The position numbers and the translations under genes were made by a program. This document shows positions 13,036 through 64,000 of a stretch of 64,000 nucleotides of DNA, in pieces (the stretch's first letter is position 1; every line of letters begins with the position of its first letter). The notes beneath the pieces were generated by a model that worked only from the letters and a program-made list of their open reading frames with translations, was not told the DNA's origin and did no database searches. Source of the DNA: Closterium sp. NIES-65 (taxonomy: Eukaryota; Streptophyta; Zygnematophyceae; Desmidiales; Closteriaceae); NCBI GenBank assembly GCA_948144175.1, contig CANXME010001453.1, positions 3,162,001 to 3,226,000 of the forward strand, in the 5' to 3' direction.

Positions 13036-16000
13036 TTAAGCTTTTGCTACAACAGGCTCCTCGGCGTATTTCAGAGCACGAGTCATTTCAAAGAAGTGCA
13101 AGACGCTCTCCTCTGGTGTCCCCACCAACACGCCGTGGCCCAGGTTGAGAATGTGGCCGCGCGGACCCGCCTTGGCAACACAGCTGTGGGAGAGAGTGAA
13201 TGAGAACGAGGGTAGGGGGGGTATGAAGGGTGGAAAGAAATACGGCAAATCGTTATCGGTAGAATAAAGAACAGAGCATGTCCCCACCACCACGTCATGG
13301 CCCAGGTTGAGAACGTGGCCCTGTGGACCTACCGGTACCTTGCCCTCACACTGTGAGGAACTGAGTTAATGACAACAAGGGTATGGGGGGTACGAGGGGT
13401 GGGAAGAAAGACAGCAAAAACAGATGCACTTCCAGTATACATTTGTTGCAGCAAGTTTCCCACCAATGGATTGTACCTGTCGTGGCATCCTTGGAGGTCA
13501 ACAGCACAGCTGGGTCCACATTCCCTTGCACAGACAGCACTCACAATATGCAGCTCGTGATGCCATAGCAATCACACTCACCGGTGAATAGCATCAGTGA
13601 CGGCGTCCTTGGAGGCGAACAGCACAGCAGGGTCCACATTGCCCTGCACCGACAGCCTCGGCTTCGCACTCCCTCCGGGCCTCGCCCCCAGAGCGCCGTC
13701 GATCCGTGCCCGTGCATCGGCCATGTCAATGGTCCAGTCAACACCAATGACAATCACACAACACCCAAGATCACTCACCGATTGATGGCATCAGTGACAG
13801 CATCCTTGGAGGCGAAGAGCACGGCAGGGTCCACGTTCCCCTGCACCGACAGCCTCAGCTTCGCACTCCCCCCGGAACTCGCCCTCAGAGCGCCGTTAAT
13901 CCTCGCCCGTGCATCAGCCATGTCGATGGTCCAGTCCACTTCGATGACGTCAGCCCCAGTGGTGGCTATGCACCGACAGCACCCACTGTATATCACTCGT
14001 GGTTACAGCGAATCACTCACCGGTGGATGGCATCAGTAACGGCATCCTTGGAGGCGAACAGCACAGCAGGGTCCACGTTGCCCTGCACCGACAGCACTCA
14101 CAGAAAACCTTTGCTATATGCCAGTTAGTTACAGCAAGTTACTCACCGGTGGATGGCGTCAGTAACGGCATCCTTGGAAGCAAACAGCACGGCAGGGTCC
14201 ACGTTGCCCTGCACCGACAGCCTCGGCTTCTCACTCCCCCCAGGGCTCGCCCTCAGAGCGCCATCGATCCTCGCCCGTGCATCGGCCATGTCGATGGTCC
14301 AGTCAACACCGATGACGTCAGCCCCAGTGGTGGCCATGCGCTCCATGAGACCCCCGCTGCCATTGGCGTACAGCACGACTGGCACCGTGGGGTGCTTCGC
14401 CTTCAGCTGGGAGATAACCTGGGGGATGCAGTGAAGGGAAGGAAGGATGCACAGGGACGTTCAAAGAATGAAACCCAGTGGTGGCCATGCGCTCCATGAG
14501 ACCCCCGCTGCCATTGGCATAGAGCAGATAGGCACCATGGGGTGCTTTGCCTTAAGCTGGGAGATAACCTGGGGAATGGGGGACGATGATAAGGGAGGGA
14601 TGCAACAGGGGTTCTAAGGGTGAGCCCCAGTGGTGGCCATGCGCTCCATGAGACCCCCGCTGTCATTGGCGTACAGCACGACTGGGACTGTGGGTTCTGC
14701 TTCAGCTGGGAAATGACCTGGGGGGTGTAGCAAGGGGTGCACCAGGAACTCTCAAGGGGGTGTTTGTGCTCAAGTTTGTGCTGAAGTTTGAGCACAAATA
14801 GCACATAGCACAGCTGTCGAGCGCTCACCTGAATGATGTAAGGCTTGGCCCACTCGTCCCACAAGTCAGGGGGGACAGCATTACGAATGGCACAATATTT
14901 CTCATATAGTGAACTGCACAGTGGGCTTGAGGGCTCACTAGAATGATGTACGGCTTGGCCCATTCGACCCACTGGTCGGGCGGCGAAATCACACACGGCA
15001 CGGTTCGCCCCACATAGCACACTAGTTCACCTGAATGATGTACGGCTCGACCCACTCGTCCCACGGGCCGGGCGGCAGCATTACGAATGGCACAATATTT
15101 CTCATATAGTGAACTGCACAGTGGGCTTGAGCGCTCACCTGGATGATGTACGGCTTGGCCCACTCGTCCCACTGGTCGGGCGGCAGCTGGCCGTCCCACT
15201 GGTCGGGCGGCAGCTGGCCGCCCCACAAGTCAAACACCTGGATGCACTGCAACTGGGTGACCTGATGGTAGGTATAGGCGCCTTTGCTCCACACTGAACG
15301 GGGCTAGGCTCTCACCTCGAATACATATGGATTGGCCCACTCGTCTCACTGGTCGGTGACAGCTTCAAGCACTGCACGGATATTCCTCCCACAGAAGACC
15401 AGTTAAGCGCTCACCTGAATGTGGCTTGGCCCACTCGACCCACTGGTCGGAGATAGCAGCTCTAAGAACGGCACTGGTTTACCTCATAGAGCACAGCAGT
15501 CGAGCTCTTTCTCACCTGGATGATGTACGGCTTGGCCCATTCGTCCCACTGGTCGGGCGGCAGCTGGCCGCCCCACGAGTCAAAGACCTGGATGCACTGC
15601 GCGCCGGCGTCCACTTGGAACGCGGCATATGTTGCGATCTCATTGGCCAGGTGCTGCAGGATCGCGCGCAGCACGTCCGGCGCGCTGTGGATCATGCCCT
15701 TGATCTTGGTGTACGTACGCGTGGTGCCGCCCTCCACACAGTACGTCGCCAGCGTCCACGGCGCCCCCACAAAGCCCAGGAGAGCGGCCGTGCCCTCGAT
15801 CTGCCAGAAGAGGGGGCAGGAGGAAGGGGAAAGAGGGAAGGCGAAAGGAACGAAGGCACGTCAGGCGCGGGGAAGAAGGGTTGGGGGAACGGGGGAAGGG
15901 GGGAGGCTGGGAAGGGGGGGAGGGGGGGAGAGGGGAAGGAGGGACAGCGGGGAGGGGAAGGAATGGAACAGAGGCACGTGTGGCGCGCTCTGATTCATGG

Positions 16001-17469
16001 CGTTGACCTCACGTAGTTTCCCCCCACTCACACCGCCCCCATCTCCCCCTCTCCCCTCCCTTGTCCGCTTTTTCATATACCAACGCATATGCTTCCCAAA
16101 TTGCCGCAGTGACTCATATACAGAGGGCAGCTTTTCCAGCTGCATGGCTACCACCGCCTTGAGACCCTCGCAACTTTTCCCCTGCCCCCACCCTACCCCT
16201 CTCCCCTCCCCCTCTCCCCTCCCCCTTCCCACACTACCCGCCCCCGTCCCCACCCTACCGCTCTTCCTTCCCCTCCCCCATCCTACCGACAACTCCCGAC
16301 GCTATCTCCCCTTCCGACGCTATCTCCCCTTCCGACGCTACCCTCCCCTCCCCCAGTTCCCCCTCAACGTTCCCTCCCACGCACCTCTTTCCGAATCTGC
16401 CTCAGCGACTCATCAACGAAGTGCAGCTTGTCCAGCTGAACCGGCGTTAACGCCTTGAGATCCTCCGTCGTCCTAATGGGGCTGTCTATAATGGGGCCCT
16501 TGTTCTCGTCGATCTCGAACGGAATACCCATCGCATCCAACGGCGTCAGAATGTCCGAGAACAGGATCACGCCGTCGGGCTTGAACGCGCGCCACGGCTG
16601 CAGGGTAATTTCGACGATTAGATCCGTCGTCTCGGAACGTTCGCGGAAAGAGGGATGGTTCTTGGAGAGCTTCTGGTACGCAGCCATGTAGCGGCCCGCT
16701 TGGCGCATCATCCAGGCGGGCGGGCGCGGAATGGCCTCCCCGCGCGCGGCGCGCACCAGCAGGGGCTCGTCCGCTGGAAGGGGAAAAGGGATGGAGGGGA
16801 TACGTTGTGATACCATAAGGAAAGTCCCTGATCCAGGAGTCAGGCACACGCGGGGGACGCAGAATGGATTTTCCACGGCCGCCCACGCTAGTGTCTATCA
16901 CGGACCGACCAAGGTGAATGTTGGAATTCATAAGTTTCCTGTACCTCGTGCGCTAGACACATTGCAGCAAGTATTTTTTGCGTTGTGGAAGAAGCAAGGC
17001 ACATCAACACCTGCGAGGCATTGCAAGAGGCATTGTCGGGTCTGGGTTGACTTCAGGAAATCAGTTGGAAGGCACACATATCAGCGTCGCTTACCTGACG
17101 CCCTGGGCTGCACGGCCCGCCTCTGCGAAGCATTGCAGGAGACGGATTGGGTCGTGAGGGTTCGGCAGGCAGCGCCGTGGAGCTCGGAGCCTGCGAAGGA
17201 CACGGCGGGTTGACTATCATTGACTATCAGCGTCGCTTACCTGACGCCCTGGGCTGCACGGCCTGCCTCTGCGAAGCATTGCAGGAGACGGATTGGGTCG
17301 TGAGGGTTCGGCAGGCAGCGCCGTGGAGCTCGGAGCCTGCGAAGGACACGGCGAATTTCGCGCTGGTCGCCGTCACTGGTGATCGGGATGATTGCGCGAT
17401 GGTGCCGACGTGGCTCTGCATGCTGATTGGACGAGGGCGAGACAGGGAGCACAGAAATGGAAATGCCAC
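13036..17469 (-). CDS. HEME: Uroporphyrinogen decarboxylase, plastid-targeted
   Basis: Five exons, 17469-17241, 16773-16385, 15800-15516, 14418-14147 and 13183-13036, join in phase to 440 residues. The enzyme decarboxylates the four acetate side chains of uroporphyrinogen III to coproporphyrinogen III in heme and chlorophyll synthesis. Exon 1 (about 76 residues) is Ser/Ala/Thr-rich with Arg and few acidic residues, like a chloroplast transit peptide; an internal Met at codon 17 is an alternative start. The mature part carries [13 protein letters not shown] (first signature), [13 protein letters not shown] with the catalytic Asp, [16 protein letters not shown] (second signature), and the late NLGHGV histidine. 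Introns 1, 3 and 4 contain diverged copies of the flanking exon ends. Confidence 0.96.
13184..14146 (-). repeat. Tandem exon-end copies in UROD intron 4
   Basis: After the donor of exon 4 there are four diverged copies of that exon's tail at about 14024-14090, 13782-13960, 13582-13755 and 13455-13530. They encode variants of [19 protein letters not shown], and three end in a GTGAGT-type donor. Next, at about 13259-13345, comes one degraded copy of the head of exon 5 ([14 protein letters not shown]). None is a complete exon with both splice sites, so they are best read as intronic copies. Confidence 0.85.
14419..15515 (-). repeat. Tandem exon-end copies in UROD intron 3
   Basis: About six copies of the tail of exon 3 (variants of [15 protein letters not shown] followed by GTGAG) lie between about 15450 and 14827. 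One at 15135-15237 is longer and internally triplicated. They are followed by two copies of the head of exon 4 at about 14720-14620 and 14570-14480, each with its CAG acceptor. Copies differ by substitutions and small indels, so they are not exact assembly duplicates. Confidence 0.85.
17089..17352 (-). repeat. Duplicated tail of UROD exon 1
   Basis: A near-identical segment of about 120 bp occurs twice with a 136-bp offset. It contains the last third of the transit-peptide exon and the donor GTAAGC. The copy attached to the full exon is taken as functional. Confidence 0.85.
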
Positions 17470-33188: not shown

Positions 33189-33193
33189 CAGGG

Positions 33194-33474
33194 TGTTATG
33201 AATCAACTTGCAGAGTGCGCAGTAAAAGGAATATCGAGAATGATTGAGTACTGAATTACTGAATTTCGCAACAATGAAGTAGCGAGGCCTAAATAGAGGA
33301 AAACCTAGCTAGGCGGGGGGTTCGGGTTGGGATGGCTCGGTGATGGTTGCGATTGGAGCGGAGGCCGACTCGGGAGTGGTTCGGTGCGACGAAATAGGAA
33401 GGTCAGGTTCGTCGCGTGACCCTCGGGATGGCCTCGCTAACGAGTGCCTCAGTAAGGATTTGTAAATCCTTACA
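33194..33474 (-). repeat. 3' LTR of the outer element
   Basis: 281 bp with TG...CA ends, preceded by the CAGGG target duplication. Near one end it contains the short inverted repeat AAGGATTTGTAAATCCTT. Confidence 0.95.
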
Positions 33475-35799: not shown

Positions 35800-35930
35800 T
35801 GTGAGAATAAATGATCAGAATGGAAATGACTAAGCCAGTGTTGGGTACAAATACAACCCTAGAAAGCTGTACCCCATATGTGCTACCCCACTATAGCCTA
35901 CAAACATGTATCAGCTATAATAATCTGACA
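35800..35930 (-). repeat. 3' LTR of the nested Copia element
   Basis: 131 bp, TG...CA ends, no differences seen from its partner at 43078-43208. Confidence 0.95.
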
Positions 35931-42106: not shown

Positions 42107-42139
42107 GCAGTGACAGTGGGACTGTGCTCACCAGGCAGG

Positions 42140-42970: not shown

Positions 42971-43077
42971 CCACGAGGGAAAGGGCGACTCGAGGGGTCG
43001 CTAAAAAAAATGCGCGCCTCGGGGCGCGCTTCGGTGGGCCCTAGGCAACGTTCCCACAGGGAACTCGCTCTATACCA

Positions 43078-43208
43078 TGTGAGAATAAATGATCAGAATG
43101 GAAATGACTAAGCCAGTGTTGGGTACAAATACAACCCTAGAAAGCTGTACCCCATATGTGCTACCCCACTATAGCCTACAAACATGTATCAGCTATAATA
43201 ATCTGACA
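43078..43208 (-). repeat. 5' LTR of the nested Copia element
   Basis: 131 bp, identical by eye to 35800-35930, flanked outside by the second GTAGG target duplication. Confidence 0.95.
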
Positions 43209-44433: not shown

Positions 44434-44714
44434 TGTTATGAATCAACTTGCAGAGTGCGCAATAAAAGGAATATCGAGAATGATTGAGTACTGAATTACT
44501 GAATTTCGCAACAATGAAGTAGCGAGGCCTAAATAGGGGAAAACCTAGCTAGGCGGGGGGTTCGGGATGGGATGGCTCGGTGATGGTTGCGATTGGAGCG
44601 GAGGCCGACTCGGGAGTGGTTCGGTGCGACGAAATAGGAAGGTCAGGTTCGTCGCGTGACCCTCGGGATGGCCTCGCTAACGAGTGCCTCAGTAAGGATT
44701 TGTAAATCCTTACA
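44434..44714 (-). repeat. 5' LTR of the outer element
   Basis: Partner of the LTR at 33194-33474 with three differences. It is followed on the plus strand by the second CAGGG target duplication. Confidence 0.95.
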
Positions 44715-44988
44715 CAGGGAGTAACATGAAACCAAACAAATCAATAGAGGACGTGAAAGCCTCTCAAACCTCAAATGGGTTGTCTAAGACATGCAGAGCA
44801 GACCTGTAAATTGGGAAATTCCAATGCACTATAAGTTTCAACCTTGCAGGGATCCACAACACCTGTTTGCTAACAGATGAAGCGATATTTTGCTTTGTTT
44901 CACAAACCAGTGGTACTACTTCATGTTCCTATACTCTGCACACCATCAAATCAAATCAAATCCGTGGAATAAAATCTTCTAAATATGG

Positions 44989-47900: not shown

Positions 47901-50900
47901 AGCACTGCCCCATGGCACACCACATGCGCGAGTCATGCGGGCGGAGAGAGGCCGCCTTCCTGTGGTTGGAGAGAAACACGCATAAAGGAAGGGAGAGTGG
48001 GGGTAGCAGTGGATGACGGCTGATGGCTGCTGCAGCTGCTGGGCCTCGTAGCAGCACTGCCCCATGGCACACCACATGCGCAAGTCGTGGGGTCGTAGAG
48101 AGGCCGCCTTCCTGTTAGGCATACAAAGACAGGAAGGAAGGAGAGAGTTAGAGTGGGCGGTAGCAGTGGATGACGGCTGCTGGCTGCTGCAGCTGCTGCG
48201 CCTCGTAGTAGCACTGCCCCATGGCACACCACATGCGCGAGTCATGCTGGCGCAAAGAATCGCATACGTCTGCCCGAGCATACACGAAAACCCCAAACCC
48301 TAAATCAGAGACTCACCAGTAGTAGTAGAGGGCGTAGTAGGGCATCGCAAGAATCTCATACGTCTGCCCGAGCCCGTACCATGTGCGATAATCCCTCGGA
48401 TTAAAATCGACCGCCCTCCTGTAAGCCTGGATCGCCCCGGCACTGTTCTTCATCTCCACATACTCGTGCCCCATCAGCGTCCACGCTGACAGGTAGCAGC
48501 ATTTGAACCTTCCCCTGATGCCAAAACCCGAAACCTTAACCCCTAAACCTTCAACTTAAGCCCCGAATAGAGGGCACTCACCAGTAGTTATAGAGGGCGT
48601 AGTAGTACGGCATGGCGAAACCCTCAACCTCACACCTGAAACCCCAAACCCCAAAGCAAACACTGTCACTCACCGGTAGTAGTAGAGGGCGTAGTAGGGC
48701 ATGGCGAGAATCTCATACGTCTGCCCGAGCCCGTACCACGCCCTATAATCCCTCGGGTTGATATCCACCGCCCGCCTGTACGCTTGAATCGCCCCGGCAC
48801 TGTTCTTCATCTCCACATACTCGTGCCCCATCAGCGTCCACGCTGACAGGTAGCAGCGGTCGAGGCGGAGGGCTCGGCGGAAGTAGGCCACGGCTCGCTC
48901 GTGGCGGCCCTTTAGGGAGAAATAGTTTCCGACGATGCAGCACGTCTCTGGCCGGTACTTGTCAATTTTTGTCACCTGACATGGGGGGAAAGAGGAGGGA
49001 GGGTGTGAAAGCCATGGGGAAGAGGGAAGGAGGGCACACCACGAAACCCATAAGGCAGAGGACCCATAGACCCATGCGGCAAGAGGCAGCGTCCATGCGG
49101 AGAGGTAGCAGCGGTCGAGGCGGAGGGCTCGGCGGAAGTAGGCTACGGCTCGCTCGTGGCGGCCCTTTAGGGAGAAATAGTTTCCGACGATGCAGCACGT
49201 CTCCGGGCGGTATTTATCGATTTTAGTGACCTGAGGGAAGGTGGAGGCAGTGCGCGAAAGCCATGGGGAAGGAATAAGGTACACATGTAAGAAAACCCTG
49301 ATGGCAAGAGGCAGCGTCCACGCGGAGAGGTAGCAGCGGTCGAGGCGGAGGGCTCGGTGGAATGGAAGTAGGCCACTGCACGCTCGTGGCGGCCCTTGAG
49401 GGAGAAGTAGTTTCCAACGATGCAACACGTCTCTGGCCGGTACTTGTCGATTTTAGTGACCTGGAGTGGCAAAAACAAGGGAGACGTGGAGAGGAAACGA
49501 CCACAGCAATGCTTTTAGGGAGAGTTGAGGCGCCTCAAAAGGATCTATGCTTATAATGGAAGAGCAGCAATTCTAAGAGTTGCAAAAGACGTGGAGAGGA
49601 AAAGACCACAGCAATGCTTTTAGGGAGAGTTGGTTTCCTTCCCACTATGCGGCCTGTTTTAGGGCGGTACTTGTCGACCCTTAATGGGGTTGACCAGTCA
49701 ACACCGGTCAACTCTGGTCAACTCACATGTGCTGTGAGGAAAACCCCCCCTTCACCCATGTGCAGGTCAACTCAAGTCAACGCCAGTCAACTTACCCGGT
49801 GCGCCAGGTGGGAGAGCCCAGCAAAGTCCTCCTTCACGTAGAGAATATTTGAAAACGTGTCCATGGCCTCTAGTCTGTACGGGTCAACGCCAGTCAACTC
49901 TGCGAACACAGCCTCTGCCGAGTCAAAGTCCCTCAGGTTGTAGTGCGCCGTTGCTGTTGCTGCTGCCACCCACGTGCTCTGTGGAAAGCCCCCTCCTTTC
50001 CCCGCCGCTTTGCCAGTTCCTCCTGTTGTTGTCTCTCCTGCTCCCCCTGCTGCTGCTGCTGCTGCTGCTGCTGCAGTTCCCCCTCCTTCCCCATCCGCCA
50101 TTCGCCTCCTTTCCCCCTGCTCCCCCTCTGCTTGCTGCGATGAGTGAGAGAGGGAGTGAGAGAAGGAGGAGGAGGCGGAGGAGGAGGAGGAAGGGGGGGA
50201 GGCGAGGTGCAGGCAGAGGGAGAGGGCTTCGGAGTTGCGGTGGAGGGAGAGGAGGAGGGAGGAGAGGGCGAATAGAGTCATCCAGTGGGCAGGGAGGGAG
50301 GGGAGGAGCGAGAGGTAGGTGTCGTGGTCGAGACAGAGGGCCTGGAGGGGAGGGGAGAGTGGGTGAGAAGGGAAGAGAGGGAAGGGGTTGGGGGGAGAAT
50401 AGTGGAGGAGAGAGGAGAGGGCGAAAAGAGTCATCCAGTGAAGGGAAGGGAGGGGAGGAGCGAGAGGTAGGTGTCATGGTCGAGACAGAGGCCGCAGCCT
50501 CGTAATGTCTCCCACCACTAAGTGGTGTTCCTTGAGTGAGAGGTAGGTGTCATGGTCGAGACAGAGAGCCTGAAAGGGAGACATGTAGGGGGGACGAGAG
50601 GGGAGGAACACAGGAGGGAGGAGAGGGCGAATAGAGTCATCCAGTGGGCAGGGAGGGAGGGGAGGAGCGAGAGGTAGGTGTGGTGGTCGAGACAGAGGGC
50701 CTGGAAATGGGTGTGTGGGTGGGAAGGGGAGGGGAGGGAAGGAGTTGGGGGGGAGAATATCGGAGGAGGAAGGAAAGGGCGAAGAGGGTCATCCAATGGC
50801 AAGGGAGGGAGGGGAGGAGGGATAGGTAGGTGTCATGGTCGAGACAGAGGGCCTGGAGGGGGGTGTGTGTGGGAGAGGGCGAAAGAAGGTTGGTGGAGGG

Positions 50901-53900
50901 GCAGCTGAGTTGACAGCGAAAAGGGGATTCAAGAGTGAGAAGAAAAGGGAGGCAAGGTGCAGGCAGAAGACTTTTGCGGCGCCTCACGAGGCGAGGTGCA
51001 GACAGAGGGAGAGGGCTTCGGAGTTGCGGTGGAGGGAGAGGAGGAGAGAGGAGACAAAGAGAGTCATCCAGTGGCAAGGGAGGGATGGGAGGAGGGAGAG
51101 ATAGGTGTCTTGGTCGAGACAGAGGGCCTGGAGCGGAAAGTGGGGCAGGAGCGGGGAGAGGGAAGGGTGGGGGGTGGGGGAGAAACATCGGATCGGAGGA
51201 GGGGAGGGCGAAGAGACCCATCCAGTGGGAAGGAGAGCGTGGGATGGAGAGTAGAAGATTCCACCTCAAAATCTTTCTCAGGACCTACCTCAAAACTTCA
51301 CCTCTATCACATGGTTAAGTCCCAAGGGACCTCTTCACACTCTCACACACTCCTTCACACTCACACTCCTTCACACTCTCACACACTCCTTCACACTCAC
51401 ACTCCTTCACACTCTCACACACTCCCTCACACTCTTCCCCACATACACTCAATCCCAGGGATACTAATCTCTCACCTCTATCTGCTGCCATGCAGCCAGA
51501 TTCCAAGGGTACTCCCGCACACTCCCTGACACTCTCACACACCAACCCCCCTCCCCTCCATCTCATACCCTTCCACACTCTCACTTCCAGAAATACTCTT
51601 CGCTCACCTCTATCTGCTGCCATGCAGCCCAGTTCCAAGGGTACTCCCTCACACTCTTGCACAGCAACCCCCTCCCCCTCTTCCTCACTCTCCTTCACTG
51701 CACGTGATTGTGTGCGTTTGTCAGCGTGCCTGCCACCCTCTCTCTCCTCATCTGCTGCCATGCAGCCCAGTTCCATTCCAAGGGCACTCCCGCACACTCT
51801 CACACAGCAACCCCCGCGCCTCCCCCTCTCTCCCCCTCTGCGCCAACACTACCCCCACCAGATACCTCCCCCACGCATCCAGCCTGCCTTGTGATTGGCC
51901 ACAAAGTCCCTCCCAGGGATACTACTCGCTCACCTCTATCTGCTGCCATGCAGCCCAAATCCAAGGAAACTCCCTCAAACTCTCCCACGCACTCTCCCAC
52001 GCACTCTCCCACGCACTCTCCCACGCACTCTCCCACGCACTCTCCCACGCACCCTCCCTCACACTCACTTCAAGGGTATACCCTCACCTCTATTTGCTGC
52101 CACGCAGCCCAGTTCCAAGGGTATTCCCGCACACTCTCACACAGAGCCACCCGCGCCTCCCCCTCTCTCCCCCTCTGCGACAACACCACTCCCAGCAGAT
52201 ACCTCCCCCACGCATCCAGCCTTCCTGCCGCCCGCTCCCGCTCCAGCTCAGCCTGGACACGTGGCAGCTCAGGATTGGCCACAGGAGACGCGGGGTTGTC
52301 CGGGGAGGAGGAGGTGGGGTGGGCAGGGAAGGGTATGGGCTGCTGCTGCTGGTTGGTTCCCGGGAGAGTTTGCTGCTGGGATGAGGTTTCTAGAATGATT
52401 TCTTCCTTGCGTTTCTCCCCTGCCTGAAAAGGGGGGGGTGAGGGGAGGGGGGGGGGAATGATGAGGGAAGGAGGGAAATGATGGAAGAACAGGGAACGGG
52501 CGGGTACTGCTGCTGCTGGTTGGTTTTTGAGGCGCCTCAAAAGAAGAGCAGGGTACGGGCGGGTACTGCTGCTGCTGGTTGGTTTTTGAGGCGCCTCACA
52601 AGACTTTTGAGGCGCCTTGTCGGAGTTCTTCCCTTCTCCTTCCTCACTCCTCCCTTGCCCCTGCCTCTTCCCTGCCTTGTGTCCTCACCTTCTTCCCTGC
52701 CTTGTGTCCTCACCTTCTTCCCTGCCTTGTGTCCTCACCTTCTTCCCTGCCTTGTGTCCTCACCTTCTTCCCTGCCTTGTGTCCTCACCTTCTTCCCTGC
52801 CTTGTGTCCTCACCTTCTTCCCTGCCTTGTGTCCTCACCTTCTTCCCTGCCTTGTGTCCTCACCTTCTTCCCTGCCTTGTGTCCTCACCTTCTTCCCTGC
52901 CTTGTGTCCTCACCTTCTTCCCTGCCTTGTGTCCTCACCTTCTTCCCTGCCTTGTGTCCTCACCTTCTTCCCTGCCTTGTGTCCTCACCTTCTTCCCTGC
53001 CTTGTGTCCTCACCTTCTTCCCTGCCTTGTGTCCTCACCTTCTTCCCTGCCTTGTGTCCTCACCTTCTTCCCTGCCTTGTGTCCTCACCTTCTTCCCTGC
53101 CTTGTGTCCTCACCTTCTTCCCTGCCTTGTGTCCTCACCTTCTTCCCTGCCTTGTGTCCTCACCTTCTTCCCTGCCTTGTGTCCTCACCTTCTTCCCTGC
53201 CTTGTGTCCTCACCTTCTTCCCTGCCTTGTGTCCTCACCTTCTTCCCTGCCTTGTGTCCTCACCTTCTTCCCTGCCTTGTGTCCTCACCTTCTTCCCTGC
53301 CTTGTGTCCTCACCTTCTTCCCTGCCTTGTGTCCTCACCTTCTTCCCTGCCTTGTGTCCTCACCTTCTTCCCTGCCTTGTGTCCTCACCTTCTTCCCTGC
53401 CTTGTGTCCTCACCTTCTTCCCTGCCTTGTGTCCTCACCTTCTTCCCTGCCTTGTGTCCTCACCTTCTTCCCTTCCTTCTTATTCTCGCCTTTCCCCACC
53501 TTGTGCTGTTCCCACTCCTGTCACCCTGTTCCCTTCTGCGTTCTCAGCCACTACCTGCCCCCTCCTGTGCTCGTGCTCGAGCTGCTCGGGCGCGAGTCAC
53601 ATGACTCTCAGCTGAGGACGGCTGCTCTTCAGTCCTGCCGTGCAGGTCTGGTGGTCCCCGGTCTGTTCTCCCTTCTTCTTCTCCAACACTAGCACTCCCA
53701 CGCCTCGCACTGCTCGCGCCCTCCCCTTCACTCTTCCCTATTCCACAGCTAGTGTATCCTTCTTTGCCCCTCTCTTCCCGTCCCACCTCTCTAGCCGCCC
53801 TTATCCCCTTGCCTTCCTGCTGCTGCCACTGCTCACGGCTGCACGCATCCCTCAACTGCACGGTATGTAGGTCCTCCACCGATACCGGTATCACCTCCTC

Positions 53901-56900
53901 CAAGTGTTCCGCTGCCTTAGCTTGCTCCCATGCCGCCCGGTTCTCCGCTTCTTCCATTGCATGGTCTGCCTTTTCCCCTGTTGCTAGGGGCTCCCCTGCC
54001 CCCACTTCCTCACTCTCCTGCTCTGCTCCCCCCAGCAGCTCTGGCCTTCCTTCCCGCAGCTTACTCACATGCTGCTCCGCCAGCTTGTTTCCCTGCGCTT
54101 GCTCCTCTGCTTGCATCCGATCCTTCATTGTCACGCCAGTCTTTGCCCCTGCCCTGATTTCCCCGAACAACTCCGCTGTCCTTAGCGCTGGCTGCCAACC
54201 ACTCCCTCCCATGTCTGTACTGCTCAGCTCCTTCTTCCCTCCTTTCTTCACCGCTCCCCCCTTCTCGCCCTTCCCTTCCGCATCTGCTGTCGCTGGTACA
54301 CACGGCCTTGCCCCCGCCTCTACGTCCCTCTCTTCTACTTCTCCTGCTGCAATTTCGCTCACTCCTGCCCCCACCTGCTCGTCCTTCTCTTCTGCTTCCG
54401 CGGCTGCTGGTACGCACGCCCAGGTCCCCTCCCTCGCATTCTTCCCTTCCCCTTCTGTGGCTGCCCATTCCTTCACCTTTTCATTCATCCCTTCAGTGCC
54501 TGCTGCTACTAATTCGCACACTCCCGCCTCCTCCTTCTCGTCCTTCTCTTCCCCTTCTGCCAATGCCCATTCCCTCACCTGCTCATTCTTCCCTTCAGTG
54601 TCTGCTGCTACAAATTCACACCCTCCCGCCTTCTCCTTCTCGTCCTTCTCTTCCCCTTCTGCCACTGCCCATTCCCTCACCTTCTCATCCTTCTCCTCCT
54701 CTCCTGCCACTGCCCATGCCCTCACCTTCGTTGCTTGCTCCCTTCCTCCGTCCCTGCCCCCACTGCGCAGCCCCATGACTGCACTGCTACGAAGCACTGC
54801 ACCGGCATATTCTGGCTCCTGCTCCTTTTCCTCTTCCTCCTCTTCCTTCCTTACATACAACCCCACCTGCCCCTCTGTTCTTTCTCTGAGCGCCCGCCCT
54901 TTCCTTCCGTCTCTGCCCCCACTGCGCAGACCCAGTTCCTCATGGCTACGTAACGCCAGGCATGTGTACTCTGGCTCCTGCCCCTCCTCCTCTTCTGCTC
55001 CTTCTTCCCTCACGTACAACCCAGCCTCCTTCTCCTTACTTCCTCCCAGGGCCTGCAACTCCGCCCGCAATTTCCTTATCTGGCTCTCAATCTCCTCTGT
55101 TGACCCTTTCCTTCCGCCTGTCCCTTTATCGCAGTCCCTTGCCTCATGCCCCCTTTCCCCACACTCTTTACATGTCGGTGCCTCCGGACAGTCCCTTCGG
55201 CGGTGCCCTGGCTTCCCAAATACATCGCAGTTCCTGCAGTGCATCCTTATGTGCCCCGGCTGCCCACAGCGGTAACAAGTGCGTGTCTCTGTCCTTTTCT
55301 CCAGCCTGCTCTCTTCTCCTGTTCCCTCCCCTGGTATCATCGCCGCTGCCCAGGTAGGACTCTTCTTCTCTATCGTCCTTGGCAGGTATACCTCGTACTT
55401 CCTCTGCGCGAGCTCCACCCGCTCCGCTAACTCGAACACCTCTTCTGGTGTTGCATCTGCTCCTAGCTCATAGACTCTCATTCTCAACCCTCCTGCCAAT
55501 CCCTTGTCTAAACCGTTCAGAAACTTGCTAATGATCATGCTGCTGTCCGTGCACACCACATCTTCCGCCAGGTTCGTTAACCGTCCGTAGTATGTCAGCA
55601 GTGACTCCTCATCCCTTTGCCTAAACTCCTGAAATTCCCGAATGCGCACTGCCGTATGCCCAGGGAACTGCTTTCTTAGGCGCTCCAGGAACAGTACCGT
55701 TGGGTCCTCGTCATCCTCTTCTGCCCTCCTCAGCCATTCACCAATCTTCATGCGATACAGAGTCTCTGCTTCTCCTCCCAACGTGCTTGGCAGGCTCAGG
55801 AAGAACTCGATCGGGTCCATCCCGCTTCTGTCGCATCGGTATTTAACACTGCTGATCTGCATCAAGTAATTTTTCAGACTTGGGCCGGTTTTCTCGTTTC
55901 CCGTGAAGCGTACTGGCACCTCCACTCGCGGCTGTGCTGTTGCGCCCCACTTCCCTGTTTCCCAGCTCTCCGTCCCTCCTCGCTCAGACACCATAACCCC
56001 TCTCCTCCTCTCCTGTTCTCCCCTGCTGCGTGTGCTGGTTCCGTACAGCACTCGCTCTAATCCTTCCCTAGCCGCTCTTGCTCCCGCAGATCCTTCGCCG
56101 TGACGCCCCGGCCTCCTCGGGCCCATCGGGCTAGTGCTCCTCCCTCGCGCATCTTCACGCTCCTCCCAGCGCCTCTCTGCATCTTCCCAACGCTTCTCTC
56201 CCCTTGCAGGGGACCGCTCCTGGTACCGTCGCCCTCTGTCCTCTCGCTGTCGCTCCTTCTCTGCTGCCCTCGAGACTTCTGGTGTCCGCACACCTTCTCT
56301 CTTGCCTCGCCAGTCCTCCTCGCGCCTCCACTCCCTTCCTCTTTCCGGTGAGTCCCACCTGTCTCTTTCCTCATAATCTCCACACTCTTCCCAGCCTCGG
56401 CGTTCCTGGTCCCGTTTCCCCCTTTCCCTTTTTCTTCCTGCCTCTTCACCCCCTTGGTATCGCTCTCCTTCGCCCCTCCTCTCACGGCTCTCTCTCTCGG
56501 GCCACCTTCTTGCTTCTTTGCTTGTTTCCTTTGCAGCCCTTCTCTCTGCCCACAGGTGTTCTTCTACTTTCTCACGGCGCGCTCCCGCCTGTTCCCTTGA
56601 GGCGCTGGGTGGCGATCGTATGCTACCCCTGCCTTGCGCCTTCTCCGCTGGCCGCCGCCTCCTTGCTGGCGAGTGCTGAACGCGCTTTCCTTCGTAATCC
56701 TCGTCCTCCTCCTCTTCTGACCATTCCAGCGATCTCCCTTCTCCCATCGCCATACGCCTCCTGCCCGCACGGCCTTGTCCTGGCTCGGGCGAACGATACA
56801 CTCCTGCTGGTGCAGCACGCCTCTTCTCCTCCTCCCCTCGCTCCCTTGACCAGGGCTCAGCTGCTTTGCTCCTGCTGCGCATCGCTTCACTCCCGCGCAC

Positions 56901-59900
56901 CTCCTCTGGCGCGCGTTCTGCCTCCGCGCGATTCCCCTCGCGCCTCGCTTCCTTCCCGCACACCTCCTCTGGCGCGCGATCTGCATCCGCGCGATTCCCC
57001 TGGCGCCTCTCTTGACTCCCGCGCACCTCCTCTGGCGCGCGATCTGCATCCGCGCGATTCCCCTGGCGCCTCGCTTGACTCCCGCGCACCTCCTCTGGCG
57101 CGCGATCTGCATCCGCGCGATTCCCCTGGCGCCTCGCTTGACTCCCGCGCACCTCCTCTGGCGCGCGATCTGCATCCGCGCGATTCCCCTGGCGCCTCGC
57201 TTGACTCCCGCGCACCTCCTCTGGCGCGCGATCTGCATCCGCGCGATTCCCCTGGCGCCTCGCTTGACTCCCGCGCACCTCCTCTGGCGCGCGATCTGCC
57301 TCCGCGCGATTCCCCTGGCATTTCGCGCCGCCCCCACCCATTCCGTTGGTCGCGCCATCTGCCTCTGCGCTCCCGCGTCGCCTTGCACCACTCCCACACA
57401 CTTCGTCTGTCGAGCGATTTAATCCCGTCGCCTCTCCGCGTTCTTCACGTTTTTCTCCACGACGCCTCTCGCCTGCCTTGCGCATGTCGCCCGGTGAGTG
57501 ATCTTCTTCCTCGTCCATGGGATCACCCTCCGCCAACTTCTCGCCGTCCGCCTCCTTCGCCAACATCAGCGAGTCCGTCTCATCGGCATCCTCCTGACGC
57601 CTTACTCCCGCGCCCCGCTGGCCTCTTGCCAGATCCCAGGGATCGCTCCTCGACGGCTGGGGTCCTGGCGCCGATCTCATCTGCAGACCGAGCTCGCCTT
57701 CACCGTGCAGTCCGTCACTGGTCGCCTTCCAATCCGCCCGATCCGCCTCTCTGCTAGGCGAGCGACCTGGCGAACTTCCCCGCTCCTTTGAGCGCATCCT
57801 TCGCGACGGCGGTATCTCCCGCTGCGAGTACGTCCGCTGCCACCGCAGCTCATGGCAGTCCATACTGCCTATCTGTTTCTCTCGTCTTGTGAGAAGTTTA
57901 CTCTCCCACAAGATGGCTGCCCACAGTGGCTTAGTCACCTAGCTAGCGTAGCCTTGTTGCGGTAACGTTATCCACTATATGAGGCAAACAAGACGAGAGA
58001 ACAGGTTTGCTATGCTAGGCTAGGCTATTTGTGCTTGGCTGCCCAGTCGCGAGTAACTCAGCGTGCTGGGTTGAGCTCGAGCCGCCTAGGCCTTGGAGTG
58101 GCCCTCGCCAGATTGCCTGTCTCCCGAGGTTCCTGAAATTGTCCCCGACGCGCCCTGTAACCCCCGATGCTACCCAACTTCTCGCTACTCTCTATAACCC
58201 AACTACCCCACATGCAGATTGAATAACACTCGCTACACCACTTCTACACCTAATTAGCACATGTCTCCAATATGATGCTCTTACCATTATATTTGGTGAC
58301 AGCCTCAAAAGAAGAGCAGGGTACGGGCGGGTACTGCTGCTGCTGGTTGGTTTTTGAGGCGCCTCAAAAGAAGAGCAGGGTACGGGCGGGTACTGCTGCT
58401 GCTGGTTGGTTTTTGAGGCGCCTCAAAAGACTTTTGAGGCGCCTCAAAAGAAGAGCAGGGTACGGGCGGGTACTGCTGCTGCTGGTTGGTTTTTGAGGCG
58501 CCTCAAAAGACTTTTGAGGCGCCTCAAAAGAAGAGCAGGGTACGGGCGGGTACTGCTGCTGCTGGTTGGTTTATGAGGCGCCTCAAAAGACTTTTGAGGC
58601 GCCTCAAAAGAAGAGCAGGGTACGGGCGGGTACTGCTGCTGCTGGTTGGTTTTTGAGGCGCCTCACAAGACTTTTGAGGCGCCTCAAAAGAAGAGCAGGG
58701 TACGGGCGGGTACTGCTGCTGCTGGTTGGTTTTTGAGGCGCCTCACAAGACTTTTGAGGCGCCTCAAAAGAAGAGCAGGGTACGGGCGGGTACTGCTGCT
58801 GCTGGTTGGTTTTTGAGGCGCCTCACAAAACTTTTGAGGCGCCTCAAAAGAAGAGTAGGGTACGGGCGGGTACTGCTGCTGCTGGTTGGTTTTTGAGGCG
58901 CCTCACAAGACTTTTGAGGCGCCTCAAAAGAAGAGCAGGGTACGGGCGGGTACTGCTGCTGCTGGTTGGTTCCCGGGAGGGTCTGCTGCTGGGATGAGGT
59001 TTCTAGAATGATTTCTTCCTTGCGTTTCTCGCCTGCCTGTAGGGATAAGGGGGAATGGAACACAGTGAGAATGGAGGAGGGGGATGGGTGGGTGGGTGGG
59101 TGTTGCTGCTGCTGGTTGGTTCCCGGGAGGGTCTGCTGCTGAGATGAAGTCTCTAGGATGATTTCTTCTTTGCGCTTCTCCCCTGCCTGCAGGGGTGGGT
59201 TTGATAGGGGAGGGAGGGGAGTGATGGGTGGGCAGGGAAGGGTATGTGCTGCTGCTGCTGGTTGGTTTACGGGAGGGTCTGCTGCTGGTTGGTTTAAGGG
59301 AGGGTCTGCTGCTGGTTGGTTTACGGCTTTAGAATGATCTCTTCCTTGCGCTTCTCCCCTGCCTGTAGCTGTGAGTGAGGAACAGCTGTAACGAAGAGGG
59401 ACTGGTGGGTGAGTGGATTGGTGGGTGAGTGGATTGGTGGGTGAGTGGATTGGTGGGTGAGTGGATTGGTGGGTGAGTGGATTGGTGGGTGAGTGGATTG
59501 GTGGGTGAGTGGATTGGTGGGTGAGTGGATTGGTGGGTGAGTGGATTGGTGGGTGAGTGGATGTTAGTGGTGGTGGTAGTTAGCCGATTATTGAGTCGAC
59601 TAGAATATTGTTAGTGGTGGTGGTTAAGTGAGTATGTGCTGCTTGTGGTGCTCCCTCTCTCACTCACAAGGTAGAGCGCATAGCAGCGCAGGAACAGGGC
59701 TCGCCTCCCTTGAACCCCCTCCAGCACGTTTGCCGCCCTCCTGAACTCCCTCACATCAAACAGCGCCCGCGCAAACAACACCTCGTCTTGTGGCACCTCA
59801 ATCATCGTATCACTCACCAGGTAGAGTGCATAGCAGCGCAGGAACAAAGCCCTCCTCCCCCCCACCCCTTCGAGCACATGTGCTGCCCTCCTGAACTCCC

Positions 59901-61612
59901 ATGTCAAACAATGCCCGCGCAAAAAGCACCTACTTATTTCACTCACAAGGTAGAGCGCATAGCAGCGCAGGAACAGCGCCCTCCTCCCTTGAACCCCCTC
60001 CAGCACGTGTGCCGCCCTCCTGAACTCCCTCACATCAAACAGCGCCCGCGCAAACAGCACCTCGTCCGAATCCTCCTCCTCCCCCTCCACAGCCTCCGTC
60101 CCTTTCACTTCACCTATCGCCGCCGCTCCTCCTTCAGCCCCGTGCGCCGTCCCTTTTGATCCTGCTGCCTCTCCTGTCGTGTGTGCCTCTGCCTTGGCAG
60201 CCCCTGCCTGCCCGTCCCTTGCTCCTCGCTCCTCTCTGCTGTCCCCTGCTGCAGATTCTGACTGGGAGGGCATGGCGGGTAGGCCAATTAGCTGCTCTGC
60301 AGCCCTGGAATGAGGAGGAGGAGAGAGGGAGTGAGAGGAATGTTAAAGTCTCTGCCCTGCCTGTCCCTTGCTCCTCGCTCCTCTCTCCTGTCCCCTGCTG
60401 TAGCTTCTGACTGAGAGTTCATGGCAGGTAGGCCGATTAGCTGCTCTGCAGCCCTGTGGAATCAGGAGGGGGAGAGGAGAGGGAAGTGATCAATAGAAGT
60501 GGTGGATAAGCAATGAGAGAATGATCGGCATTAGGTCTGGAACAGTGGGGAGGCGGCATGACCGGCAGGCCGTTCAGCTGCTCTGCAGCCCTGTGGAACC
60601 AGGAGGGGTTGAGGAGAGGGACGGGACGTCTCAGATTTTCTGATTGAGAAGGCATGGCGTTGCTCTGCGGGGCTAGAATCAGGAGGCGGAGAGACGATGG
60701 ATAAACAGAGGGCGGGAGATTGGCAATGGGTCCAGCGCACTGGGGAGACGGCATGCCGGGGTGACTTTTGAGTCGATTTAAAAGTCACGATGGATAAACA
60801 TTGGGCGGGAGATTGGCAATGGGTCCAGCGCACTGGGGAGACGGCATGCCGGGCAGGCTGATCGGCTGCTCTGCGGCCCTGTGGAATCAGAAAGGGGGGG
60901 AAAGAGGGGATGGCGGACAATAAATAGGAGAGGTGGAAAAGCAATGAGAGAACGGTCGGCATTGAGTGTGGTGTGGCACAAATGGAGACGGTAATAAACA
61001 TTGGAAGCACTACTAGGAACCTTGGGCGAATGGAGGTTTTTGAGAATTCTCAAAAACTCCCTACAATGAGAGAACGGTCGGCATTGGGTGTGGCGTGGCA
61101 CAAATGGAGACGGTACTATTTGGTGTGGCATGGTAATAAACATTGGAAGCACTACTAGGAACCTTGGGCGAATGGAAGCAGTGGAGAAGCGACAGCTTTG
61201 AATGACTTACCACGCGGACGCCTGGAGCAGGAATCGGTCGTGCAGCTCCCGCACGGCGGCTCGCAGCTAGACGCGCTTCAGCGGGCCCTTGACTTGACTT
61301 GACTCAACCTGACTCGACTTACCACGCGGACACCTGGAACAGGCATCGGTCGCGCAGTTCCCGCACGGCAGCTCGCAGCTCGGCGCGCTTCGGCAAGCCC
61401 TTGACTTGATTTCAGTTGACTTACCTTGACTTGACTTGATTGACTCACCATGAGGACGCCTGGAACAGGCATCGGTCGCGCAGTTCCCGCACGGCGGCTC
61501 GCAGCTCGGCGCGCTTCACGGCTGGGCTCGCCGCCGCTGCCGCTGCTAGCGCTGCTGCCACGGGATCGGCCGGAACGTGCCTGACGGCATCCGGCGTCGC
61601 TGGCACTGCCAT
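44989..61612 (-). CDS. APC8: Anaphase-promoting complex subunit 8 (CDC23)
   Basis: Eight exons, 61612-61449, 60304-59947, 52423-52088, 50341-49796, 48975-48674, 47780-47571, 45929-45782 and 45171-44989, all GT-AG and in phase, give 748 residues. APC8 is a TPR scaffold subunit of the anaphase-promoting complex, the E3 ligase that marks cyclins and securin for destruction in the nucleus. Landmarks are [13 protein letters not shown] near the N terminus; [81 protein letters not shown]; the TPRs [14 protein letters not shown] and [28 protein letters not shown]; and RLLDFGGP. Ala/Ser-rich insertions in exons 2 and 4 and an acidic tail explain the extra length over the 579-residue Arabidopsis protein. 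Every intron contains diverged copies of its flanking exon ends; intron 2 also contains a retroelement remnant. Confidence 0.96.
45172..45781 (-). repeat. Exon 7 tail copies and 52-bp array in APC8 intron 7
   Basis: Two diverged copies of the exon 7 tail (AERYSTRLL variants with donor) lie at about 45720-45640 and 45540-45470. The second leads into four exact copies of a 52-bp unit at 45269-45480. That unit includes the RLLG codons and a GTGAGATG donor-like site on the gene strand. Confidence 0.85.
45930..47570 (-). repeat. Tandem exon-end copies in APC8 intron 6
   Basis: Copies of the exon 6 tail ([21 protein letters not shown] variants) lie at about 47500-46950. At least seven copies of the exon 7 head ([11 protein letters not shown], each with a CAG acceptor) follow at about 46890-46000. 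Part of the latter is a 268-bp higher-order repeat present 2.6 times at 46143-46830. Confidence 0.88.
47781..48673 (-). repeat. Tandem exon-end copies in APC8 intron 5
   Basis: Copies of the exon 5 tail ([19 protein letters not shown]) lie near 48620-48570 and 48500-48310. Three copies of the exon 6 head ([20 protein letters not shown] variants) follow at about 48260-48170, 48115-48000 and 47960-47860. Confidence 0.88.
48976..49795 (-). repeat. Exon 5 head copies in APC8 intron 4
   Basis: Two long copies of the exon 5 head ([20 protein letters not shown] and following) lie at about 49465-49300 and 49230-49080, with a more degraded one at about 49680-49610. Each is preceded by an acceptor. 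Confidence 0.88.
50342..52087 (-). repeat. Tandem exon-end copies in APC8 intron 3
   Basis: Several copies of the exon 3 tail (CMAADRGE-phase remnants of the WAAWQQIE codons plus donor) with CA-rich repeats lie at about 52070-51300. About five copies of the exon 4 head ([17 protein letters not shown]) follow at about 51125-50400. Confidence 0.88.
52487..52625. repeat. Palindrome-bearing repeat, inner copies, APC8 intron 2
   Basis: Two units of the same repeat as at 58300-58965 (GGGTACGGGCGGGTACTGCT followed by GAGGCGCCTC). They lie 60 bp upstream (gene strand) of the complete exon 3. Confidence 0.85.
52667..53472. repeat. 25-bp minisatellite in APC8 intron 2
   Basis: About 32 almost identical 25-bp units. 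On the gene strand each contains GGGAAGAAGGTGAGGACAC, that is a GGTGAGG donor-like core. Long ORFs across it on the plus strand are by-products of a stop-free unit. Confidence 0.95.
53544..57938 (-). mobile_element. Gag-only Ty3-type retroelement remnant in APC8 intron 2
   Basis: A single open frame of 1,464 residues reads on the minus strand, in the same direction as APC8. The first 630 residues are highly charged, with five to six 63-bp repeats ([18 protein letters not shown] units). Residues about 660-880 match a retrotransposon gag capsid ([19 protein letters not shown] through [18 protein letters not shown]). Two CCHC zinc knuckles follow ([14 protein letters not shown] and [14 protein letters not shown]), with a knuckle-like stretch between. 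No protease, RT or integrase follows and no LTR pair was found, so the element is incomplete, although the gag frame itself looks whole. Confidence 0.85.
58300..58965. repeat. 80-bp array carrying a 20-bp perfect palindrome
   Basis: Nine units, mostly 80 bp apart. Each holds a fragment of APC8 exon 3 ([11 protein letters not shown] on the minus strand) and one or two copies of the palindrome CTTTTGAGGCGCCTCAAAAG or its slightly shortened form. Confidence 0.93.
58966..59400 (-). repeat. Exon 3 head copies in APC8 intron 2
   Basis: Three copies of the exon 3 head with acceptor ([20 protein letters not shown] and shorter forms) lie at about 59038-58940, 59190-59105 and 59370-59260. The complete exon 3 lies 6.5 kb further downstream, beyond the retroelement remnant. 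Confidence 0.88.
59401..59562. repeat. 16-bp minisatellite in APC8 intron 2
   Basis: About ten copies of GTGGGTGAGTGGATTG. Between it and exon 2 (59650-59940) lie two further copies of the exon 2 tail ([20 protein letters not shown] plus donor). Confidence 0.9.
60305..61448 (-). repeat. Tandem exon-end copies in APC8 intron 1
   Basis: Two copies of the exon 1 tail ([13 protein letters not shown] plus donor) lie at about 61385-61310 and 61275-61210. Four or so copies of the exon 2 head ([13 protein letters not shown] variants with acceptor) follow at about 60890-60410. A 110-bp direct duplication lies at 60950-61170. Confidence 0.88.
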
Positions 61613-62766: not shown

Positions 62767-64000
62767 ATGGCGAAGCGCAAGGAGGATCCGTTACAAGCAG
62801 AGGACGCGCACGACAAGCTGGAGCTGATGCCGCTGGGCGCGGGCAACGAAGTGGGGCGGTCGTGCGTGTTCATGTCGTACAAGGGCAAGAACGTGCTGGT
62901 AATCACTCCCTAGGCGCCTCATTTTTGTCGTATATGGGCAAGAACGTGCTGGTAATGGCCCTTAGGTGCAGCTGATGCCTGTAGGGGCAACCAACTGGGG
63001 CGGTCGTGCGTGTTCATGTCGTACAAGGGCAAGAACGTGCTGGTGAGGGCAAGAACGTGCTGGTGAGGGCAAGCACGTGCTGGTGAGGGCTAGCACGTGC
63101 TGGTGAGGGCTAGCACGTGCTGGTGAGGGCAAGCACGTGCTGGTGAGGGCTAGCACGTGCTGGTGAGGGCTAGCACGTGCTGGTGAGGGCAAGCACGTGC
63201 TGGTGAGGGCTAGCACGTGCTGGTGAGGGCAAGCACGTGCTGGTGAGGGCAAGCACGTGCTGGTGAGGGCAAGCACGTGCTGGTTATGGCTCTTCAGTTC
63301 GAATGTGGCATTCACCCTGCATGCTCTACTCAGGCATCGCTGGGCTGCCCGCCTTTGGTCACCTGCCTAGTTTCCATCCCCTTTCACCCCACTCAATCCC
63401 CTTCCACCGCACCCAACCCTTTCCCCACTGCCAGTTCGACTGTGGCATTCATCCCGCGTACTCTGGCATTGCCGGGCTGCCCTTCTTTGGTCACCTGCCT
63501 TCTTTCCATCCCCTTCCCCCCCACTCAATCCCCTTCCACCGCATCCAATCCCCTTCCACCGCACCCAACCCTCTTCGCACTGCCAGTTTGACTGTGGCAT
63601 TCACCCCGCCTACTCGGGCATCGCCGGGCTGCCCTTCTTTGACGAGATCGACCCCTCCTGTATTGACGTGCTGCTCGTCACGCAGTGAGTGCTGTTGACT
63701 GCCGTTGACTTGAGTTGACTCGAGTTGACTTGTTGACCTTGGTGTGCTTCTGGGCTGCCCTTCTTTGATGAGATCGACCCCTCCTGTATCGACGTGCTGC
63801 TGGTGACGCAGTGAGTGCTGCTGACTGCCGTTGACTTGAGTTGACTCATGTTGACTCACTGAGTGCTGCTGCCCTTCTTTGATGAGATCGACCCCTCCTG
63901 TGTGGACGTGCTGCTGGTGACTCAGTGAGTGTTGAATCCTTTCTGCTGCGTTGACATGAGTTGACTCGTGTTGACTCACTGAGTGCTGCTGGGCTGCCCT
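62767..64000 (+). CDS. CPSF73: CPSF73 (mRNA 3'-end endonuclease), first two exons only
   Basis: Exon 1 (62767-62898) encodes 44 residues ending MPLGAGNEVGRSCVFMSYKG and KNVL. Exon 2 (63587-63684) continues FDCGIHPAYSGIAGLPFFDE and IDPSCIDVLLVT and ends in phase 2 with CA before GTGAGT, ready for the His of the metallo-beta-lactamase motif HFHIDH, which must lie beyond the window. CPSF73 is the zinc-dependent nuclease that cuts pre-mRNA before polyadenylation. The LGAGNEVGRSCV start is typical of the family. Two degraded copies of the exon 2 head precede it (63297-63350 and 63437-63500) and at least two copies of its tail with donors follow (63749-63814 and 63870-63925). Confidence 0.93.
62926..63292 (+). 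repeat. Exon 1 donor minisatellite in CPSF73 intron 1
   Basis: After one short and one longer copy of the exon 1 tail there is a 20-bp array from about 63030 to 63290. Each unit is AAGAACGTGCTGGTGAGGGC or a one- or two-base variant: the last four codons of exon 1 fused to a GTGAGG donor. Twelve units keep the donor. Confidence 0.93.
63685..64000 (+). repeat. Exon 2 tail copies in CPSF73 intron 2
   Basis: Two copies of FFDEIDPSCIDVLLVT (one with Val for Ile) plus GTGAGT donors, separated by TTGACTTGAGTTGACT-type filler. A third copy appears to begin at the window end. Confidence 0.88.

Follow-up and report, generated by a model that had tools for sequence, protein, structure and literature searches.

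The stretch of DNA described here, hereafter the window, is a 64-kb segment (C1450:3162001-3226000) of the Closterium sp. NIES-65 assembly, which comprises 874 Mb in 2,400 contigs. It carries four exons of a UROD gene and the eight exons of APC8, both on the minus strand, and the start of CPSF73 at its right edge, and the introns of these genes contain partial, diverged copies of the ends of their adjoining exons. From its sequence the source alga is probably a member of the C. peracerosum-strigosum-littorale complex, whose six published long-read assemblies range from 438 to 975 Mb, with a mean intron of 485-554 bp in four of the six (PMC10407611). The same NIES-65 assembly contains the region again on contig C697, which is approximately 99% identical to the window over most of 11.7-64 kb, insertions excluded, and 96% identical over 4.9-11.7 kb. 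We term it the second genomic copy, as an allele and a duplicated segment are both possible.

Exon models were built for UROD and APC8, with the 5' limit of UROD exon 1 (16772) set arbitrarily. All ten modelled introns begin with GT and end with AG, and the reading frame is open across the spliced UROD exons 2-4. The UROD model is 99% identical to protein P0001 of Closterium sp. NIES-53, on which the Pfam URO-D domain was found, 94% identical to P0002 and 85% identical to the Trinity-named, transcriptome-derived protein P0003; the UROD protein is also 94-95% identical to that of Closterium NIES-68. The APC8 model matches P0122 of Closterium sp. Naga37s-1 (747 aa, with the Pfam ANAPC8 domain) end to end at 98% identity. 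P0001, P0122 and P0003 align to the spliced models without any exon copy. A protein search with one UROD exon alone returned no match, and codon-bias gene finding over the window and the upstream DNA gave a signal too weak for gene models.

When each UROD and APC8 exon was searched against its own gene, the sense partial copies were confined to the two adjacent introns, and the remaining matches were weak, antisense and located between low-complexity stretches. The ten introns hold 63 exon-derived matches, namely 23 exon tails and 25 exon heads, whose match stops no more than 12 nt from the exon end or start, respectively, and 15 truncated ones. Exon-derived sequence accounts for 46% of the intron length of the two genes (4,866 of 10,490 bp), and in APC8 intron 5 for around 63%. 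The copies differ from one another by scattered substitutions, at 72-100% identity. The match lies within 1 nt of the exon border in 36 of the 63 cases, within 3 nt in 39 and within 12 nt in 48; some of those stopping short may be older copies clipped by local alignment or by nested duplication. Two of the 23 tails lack GT and two of the 25 heads lack AG, which leaves 44 of 48 junction copies with their splice dinucleotide. In all six introns that hold both kinds the tails stand ahead of the heads, while at the 12-nt cut three of the other four have tails only and one has heads only. In this sense, an original prediction made from the letters of the window, according to which tail copies precede head copies, one splice site usually stays intact and many decoy sites could result, agrees with what both genes contain, intact decoy sites being common (Table 1).

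Table 1. Genes, exon-end copies and palindromes in the window (coordinates are window positions).
Feature	Position	Strand	Description
UROD gene part	13036..16772	-	Four exons: 16772-16385, 15800-15516, 14418-14147, 13183-13036 (stop)
UROD intron 2, tails	14829..15450	-	Tail half of exon 2 matched seven times; five of the matches extend to the junction and keep GT
UROD intron 2, heads	14474..14717	-	Two exon 3 head copies that keep AG, placed after the tails
UROD intron 3, tails	13467..14095	-	Four exon 3 tail matches (75, 193, 170 and 72 bp; last truncated)
UROD intron 3, head	13279..13329	-	One partial exon 4 head copy, 16 nt short of the junction
APC8 gene	44989..61610	-	Eight exons; model and protein match
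APC8 exons 1-4	61610-61449, 60304-59947, 52423-52088, 50341-49796	-	Model
APC8 exons 5-8	48975-48674, 47780-47571, 45929-45782, 45171-44989	-	Model
APC8 intron 1, tails	within 60347..61391	-	Exon 1 tails 61391-61323, 61280-61211
APC8 intron 1, heads		-	After the tails, exon 2 heads 60878-60840, 60590-60548, 60453-60347
APC8 intron 2	58935..59931	-	Exon 2 tails 59931-59668, then exon 3 heads 59362-58935
APC8 intron 3	50534..52059	-	Exon 3 tails 52059-51476, then exon 4 heads 51127-50534
APC8 intron 4	49087..49460	-	Two exon 5 head copies, AG kept
APC8 intron 5, tails	within 47853..48626	-	Exon 5 tails 48626-48584, 48500-48319
APC8 intron 5, heads		-	After the tails, exon 6 heads 48254-48156, 48110-47999, 47958-47853
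APC8 intron 6, tails	46958..47518	-	Exon 6 tail copies
APC8 intron 6, heads	45988..46875	-	Seven exon 7 head copies; C697 shorter here by 536 bp
APC8 intron 7	45485..45730	-	Exon 7 tails 45730-45635 and, truncated, 45579-45485
CPSF73 start	62791..63922	+	Window's right edge; tblastn with the human N-terminus as guide
CPSF73 first piece		+	Exon part 62791-62901, copy 62959-63045
CPSF73 heads		+	Copies 63292-63318, 63438-63485, ahead of the likely real exon 63590-63682
CPSF73 tails		+	Copies 63755-63808, 63869-63922
Empty site	46906..46961		56-bp target, single in the window; doubled on C697 around a 21-bp insert with TTTTGAGTCGACTCAAAA
Palindrome, APC8 intron 1	61038..61055		TTTTGAGAATTCTCAAAA, flanked by the two units of a 113-bp direct repeat
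Palindrome	52525..52542		TTTTGAGGCGCCTCAAAA, 41-bp direct repeat abutting both sides

For CPSF73, the real exon is likely 63590-63682, and the head pieces ahead of it and the tail pieces behind it are likely its copies; two CPSF73 copies are missing from the second genomic copy. Among the five genes originally named, the claim is therefore borne out by models for UROD and APC8 and by tblastn and copy number for CPSF73, and for CBSX6 and the CENP-B-like gene it stands at the level of self-similarity. Among the CPSF73 pieces, Tandem Repeats Finder (TRF) detected a 20-bp minisatellite of around 13 copies (63026-63284) that resembles the final codons of a CPSF73 exon plus its donor.

Exon-end copies are not particular to the window. 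Ten genes were screened with blastn-short at a bit score of at least 42.1, the threshold of a chicken study considered below: UROD (here UROD1) and APC8, both picked as conspicuous, UROD2-4, with one contig taken of each pair of UROD-family loci, and five of 11 distinguished loci of the CCT family, which on other contigs gave repeated partial matches to one profile stretch. Three of the CCT loci were taken with such visible repeated matches and two without. The exons of the CCT genes and UROD2-4 are profile-match cores, and some of the 41 introns may conceal a small exon. We found 118 exon-derived copies, all of which adjoin their source exon on the same strand, a few of them in the flank beyond the first or last exon core; there were no distal and no antisense copies, and five shuffled sets yielded none, which together with the 63 matches in UROD and APC8 confirms that the predicted copies are real. 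Downstream copies come from the 3' half of the exon in 48 of 50 cases, and upstream copies from the 5' half in 68 of 68. In comparisons within genes, the copies always derive from the adjoining exon. UROD1 has 11 copies, APC8 39, the five CCT genes 7-21 each, and UROD3 and UROD4 one each; UROD2 (C1769), free of copies in its four introns, provides a natural control paralogue. The strongly affected genes are located on C1450, C43, C1626, C1052, C1757 and C1133, and all six contigs screened for UROD1, APC8 or CCT genes contain copies. At least one copy is present in 31 of the 41 introns, and these have a median length of 912 bp (n=31) versus 225 bp for those without (n=10, p = 8e-5), in agreement with the original proposal that introns grow by repeated local duplication at both junctions. 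The exonic part of a copy reaches around 212 bp. A retro- or splicing-mediated origin was also considered and rejected, as it predicts whole-exon, antisense or non-adjacent copies, and none passed the screen.

We propose, with a probability that we put at roughly 70%, that uniform small tandem duplication filtered by splicing tolerance explains the growth of these introns from exon ends. Small tandem duplications, with units of about 60-270 bp, would be frequent in genes and spread over them more or less evenly. Selection would purge any that fall within an exon or take in an entire one. Any that straddle a single exon-intron junction would be tolerated, because splicing would go on using the donor farthest upstream and the acceptor farthest downstream, and the extra piece would leave with the intron. 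Since a second donor is tolerable only if it follows the real donor, and a second acceptor only if it comes before the real acceptor, exon-tail copies would gather at the 5' end of the intron and exon-head copies at its 3' end; the tail-head order, originally noted as expected from repeated local duplication of each junction, follows from splicing tolerance and calls for no mechanism of its own. Repeated over time, the process would lengthen introns from an ancestral size of perhaps 200 bp to around 1 kb, and existing tandem copies would later expand and contract. Patch-mediated and nick-induced duplications, related to small tandem duplication, are reportedly known from plant studies. The source event may lie in repair or replication, for example in staggered-break fill-in or template switching. 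Fill-in at breaks with complementary 3' overhangs does give rise to small tandem duplications and is a plausible source here, although that work deals with induced breaks in cultured cells, whereas the Closterium sequence points to no enzyme or type of break (PMC8355091).

The placement of the duplications bears on this proposal. Among the tandem duplication families none is wholly exon-internal and none extends across more than one exon, as purifying selection predicts and as was claimed from the outset for complete exons. In the youngest class (at least 95% identity) 3 of 11 families span a junction, where 2.7 +/- 1.3 are expected if positions are uniform over the tolerated ones, and the other 8 are purely intronic and spread over seven introns. 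We also simulated uniform duplication with rejection of mRNA-changing events, and for ancestral introns of 150, 200 and 300 bp the exon-derived share came to 43-48%, 35-39% and 24-28%, respectively, so that uniform duplication plus a splicing filter suffices if ancestral introns were around 150-200 bp long.

Several results weigh against a strictly uniform process. Junction families exceed expectation in the older classes, with 14 of 23 against 7.5 +/- 2.1 at 90% identity or more, and 20 of 33 against 11.0 +/- 2.5 at 85% or more. The class of at least 95% is small, and two of its 11 families lie inside a minisatellite/transposon block of APC8 intron 2; leaving them out gives 3 of 9 at junctions, to be compared with an expectation computed from the full set. 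The 46% of UROD and APC8, genes chosen as conspicuous, sits around 1-2 standard deviations above the 200-bp simulation and farther above the 300-bp one. Genes differ in how far they are affected, as the copy-free UROD2 indicates. Finally, the process seems not to be genome-uniform, as duplication density is several-fold lower in the 80 kb that precede the window: at 90% identity or more there are 7 families there versus 20 in around 34 kb of intron, a count that corresponds to the 23 less three in the transposon/minisatellite block left out of the 34 kb. Equal density in intergenic DNA, which the original prediction had named as the result that would count against it, is hence not what was found. 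This comparison is not clean, because the upstream 80 kb is mostly transposon-like, judged by its reading frames, and such DNA is probably younger. At 80% identity, 9 of the 19 upstream families lie inside the one recognised gene, at 73.9-78.3 kb, which encodes a cyclic-nucleotide-binding domain, and none was found at this identity in 5.7-13.1 kb of the window.

The excess in the older classes, the high exon-derived share and the density in introns are what would be expected if a junction-targeted process, involving for instance transcription, R-loops or the splicing machinery, duplicated exon-intron boundaries specifically. We consider this improbable, as the youngest class, which is free of decay bias, has junction families at the expected number and is otherwise purely intronic, and the strict exon-derived share amounts to 0-33% of intron length per gene across the ten genes (the APC8 denominator takes in a 6.5-kb transposon-bearing block). 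The claim that duplication is specific to junctions is accordingly not upheld by the youngest families. We tentatively attribute the growth of the excess with age to slower decay of exon-anchored pairs, as pairs that include a conserved exon would stay recognisable longer; weak junction targeting may also be compatible with it. This attribution coincides with the sober alternative put forward from the outset, in which duplications are frequent everywhere and are noticed only where they contain coding sequence.

The intact splice sites raise the question of how splicing ignores several decoys per intron. Under the proposed duplication and filtering, exon definition may keep them silent, each having one splice site only. 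Alternatively, the copies could be maintained as decoys that regulate splicing: GT or AG is retained in 44 of 48, where the identity of the copies would lead one to expect approximately 78% (binomial p = 0.01). However, this p value makes the case look stronger than it is, since it treats copies related to one another as separate observations and alignments tend to end on matching bases. Copies also diverge to around 72%, and two near-identical contigs differ in how many they hold, so that we regard such a function as very improbable.

Length differences between the window and the second genomic copy amount to 160 bp at 28.8 kb, to 536 bp in the APC8 exon 7 head array and, in CPSF73, to 144-184 bp at an exon-tail copy and 132 bp at a head copy. 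Around these differences the aligned sequences are 99.6% and 98.5% identical; for the APC8 array the figure is 94.7%, from an ambiguous alignment. The duplication process is recent and perhaps ongoing. As tandem repeats are error-prone in assemblies, some of these differences could be errors, but an artefact as the origin of the copies themselves seems to us extremely unlikely: they carry scattered substitutions at 72-100% identity, they recur on both contigs and in genes on further contigs, and a comparable amplification is seen in a protein annotated from another strain. This is a second APC8 of Naga37s-1 (P0121), publicly annotated with 1,243 aa, in which exon-head copies are read as repeated protein segments. 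Its extra length includes six near-identical in-frame exon 4 head copies, with the intervening intron taken as coding, and also exon-3 and exon-5 copies, which suggests, on the annotated protein sequence, another amplification at the same APC8 exon 4 junction. Exon-end copies can therefore account for Closterium gene models with spurious repeated segments.

The study of exon copies also led to a class of palindrome insertions with long target duplications, for which we know of no counterpart. Spacers of young duplications contain a recurrent 18-mer, TTTTGAG-NNNN-CTCAAAA, with centres that are mostly TCGA, AATT, GCGC or ACGT, and the genome has 30,327 exact sites of it versus 4 of the reversed pattern used as control. 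In the sequence examined, 11 of 15 isolated, distinct exact palindromes are bordered left and right by a direct repeat of 37-113 bp, compared with 55 of 400 random positions; with up to 3 mismatches and a looser repeat criterion the figures are 15 of 20 and 77 of 300. One site is caught in both states, since a 56-bp target that is single in the window is doubled on the second genomic copy around an insert at its position 202190. The event, in APC8 intron 6, amounts to an insertion that duplicated 56 bp of its target, and the site borders on the end of an exon 6 tail copy. At 76.6 kb of the upstream DNA, the second genomic copy lacks the palindrome together with one unit of the repeat and shows additional changes.

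A mobile palindrome inserting with target duplications of 40-110 bp could in principle have produced the junction copies as well, these being old insertions whose palindrome has decayed. The abundance of the motif, its abutting repeats and the empty site speak for this, as does the motif or a remnant of it in 10 of the 57 spaced duplications (a count of the listed spacers). Against it, 47 of the 57 spacers lack the motif, the young CCT junction duplications that were read (C43, C1626 and C1757; 95-97% identical) have no palindrome between the copies, and exact palindromes are absent from four CCT loci that do have junction copies; the fifth CCT locus has five. We judge this origin quite unlikely. 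A broader version, in which a so far unrecognised 18-21 bp palindrome with a self-complementary centre, mobile or born from repair, with around 30,000 sites and target duplications of 40-110 bp, is a main engine of intron growth together with plain tandem duplications that it may seed, and the exon-end copies are its footprint, can be entertained only tentatively and appears doubtful. Rather, the palindrome insertions form a class of their own that contributes to intron growth, since most spacers, including those of the young exon-junction duplications read, have no palindrome, and we do not claim that they make exon copies. The idea that palindromes lie behind all spacers was tried and dropped, as the mean stem strength of the 57 is no higher than that of random segments (p = 0.29); strong stems (score of at least 8) are over-represented in spacers, at 14% versus 2%. 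Among the matches listed for virus contigs, the palindrome occurs at one site in each contig, which we take as chance, and a 24-base form of it had no match in a prokaryote collection. A literature search for such insertions in Closterium gave no report among the best 10 of 243 matches.

Introners, in which one sequence family is present in the introns of many genes, are known to change introns in bulk within a lineage. Closterium shares this bulk change of intron content; here, however, the exon copies appear specific to their own gene, and instead of one inserted sequence supplying splice sites across genes we found, in comparisons within genes, copies of the adjoining exon. In potato, a tandem duplication in an RdRp gene likewise straddles the border of an intron and an exon, and splicing makes it tolerable, but there it creates a new intron, in an account that names the AGGT model of intron gain (PMC4974935), whereas in Closterium existing introns grow.

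A similar phenomenon has been described from chicken dot chromosomes as exon stuttering, or sequence stuttering (Hron et al., 2026; PMC12954441). Both systems place exon-edge fragments with donor or acceptor as imperfect tandems in the neighbouring intron, leave exons intact, affect GC-rich genes and may spare a paralogue, and the proximal, same-strand position of the copies holds for all 118 found here at its threshold of 42.1. Intron length is polymorphic between individuals in chicken and between two genomic copies of one assembly in Closterium. The differences concern host, extent and detail: stuttering was reported in birds, mainly on dot chromosomes, with a mention of gerbil genes as data not shown, and the present case is a streptophyte alga; 190 of 5,572 annotated chicken introns (3.4%) are affected versus 31 of 41 in our ten-gene set; and the exonic part has a median of 36 bp in chicken and reaches around 212 bp in Closterium. 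The source extends to within 1 base of the exon border in more than 90% of chicken cases and in 36 of 63 matches here, a count that may be lowered by the clipping of older copies. The palindrome-insertion class is a feature of Closterium, of which we found no mention in the portions of the chicken account available. In the literature searched, mostly non-subscription, the term exon stuttering was used by Hron et al. alone, and there was no report of intron duplication, junction duplication or partial-exon repeats for this alga. With our results, a gene instability reported for the microchromosomes of birds is also seen in a distantly related lineage, in which most examined introns are affected. 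They also offer a natural assay in which the small tandem duplications of a cell can be counted, dated and placed, because the exon pieces remain recognisable.

Other repeats were also noted. The window holds an 11.5-kb insertion (33193-44723) that is not on the second genomic copy, with 284-bp ends that are 98.9% identical and a polyprotein frame that we name copia-like from its reading; a search of a plasmid collection with the copia-like region gave no match. A further polyprotein frame, at 884-4066, reads as Ty3-like. Two minisatellites of around 30 copies, at 52666-53478 (25-bp) and 19369-20077 (23-bp), lie in or beside introns and differ in length on the second genomic copy. In the upstream DNA, at 28385-28761 (L023:8385-8761), two 142-bp direct repeats that start with TGTCAG and end with CTGACA surround 93 bp, and this core has, on the reverse strand, TGGTATCAGAGC, which we take to be primer-binding-like. 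To judge from these sequence features, the unit is a small element of long terminal repeat type and not a stutter.

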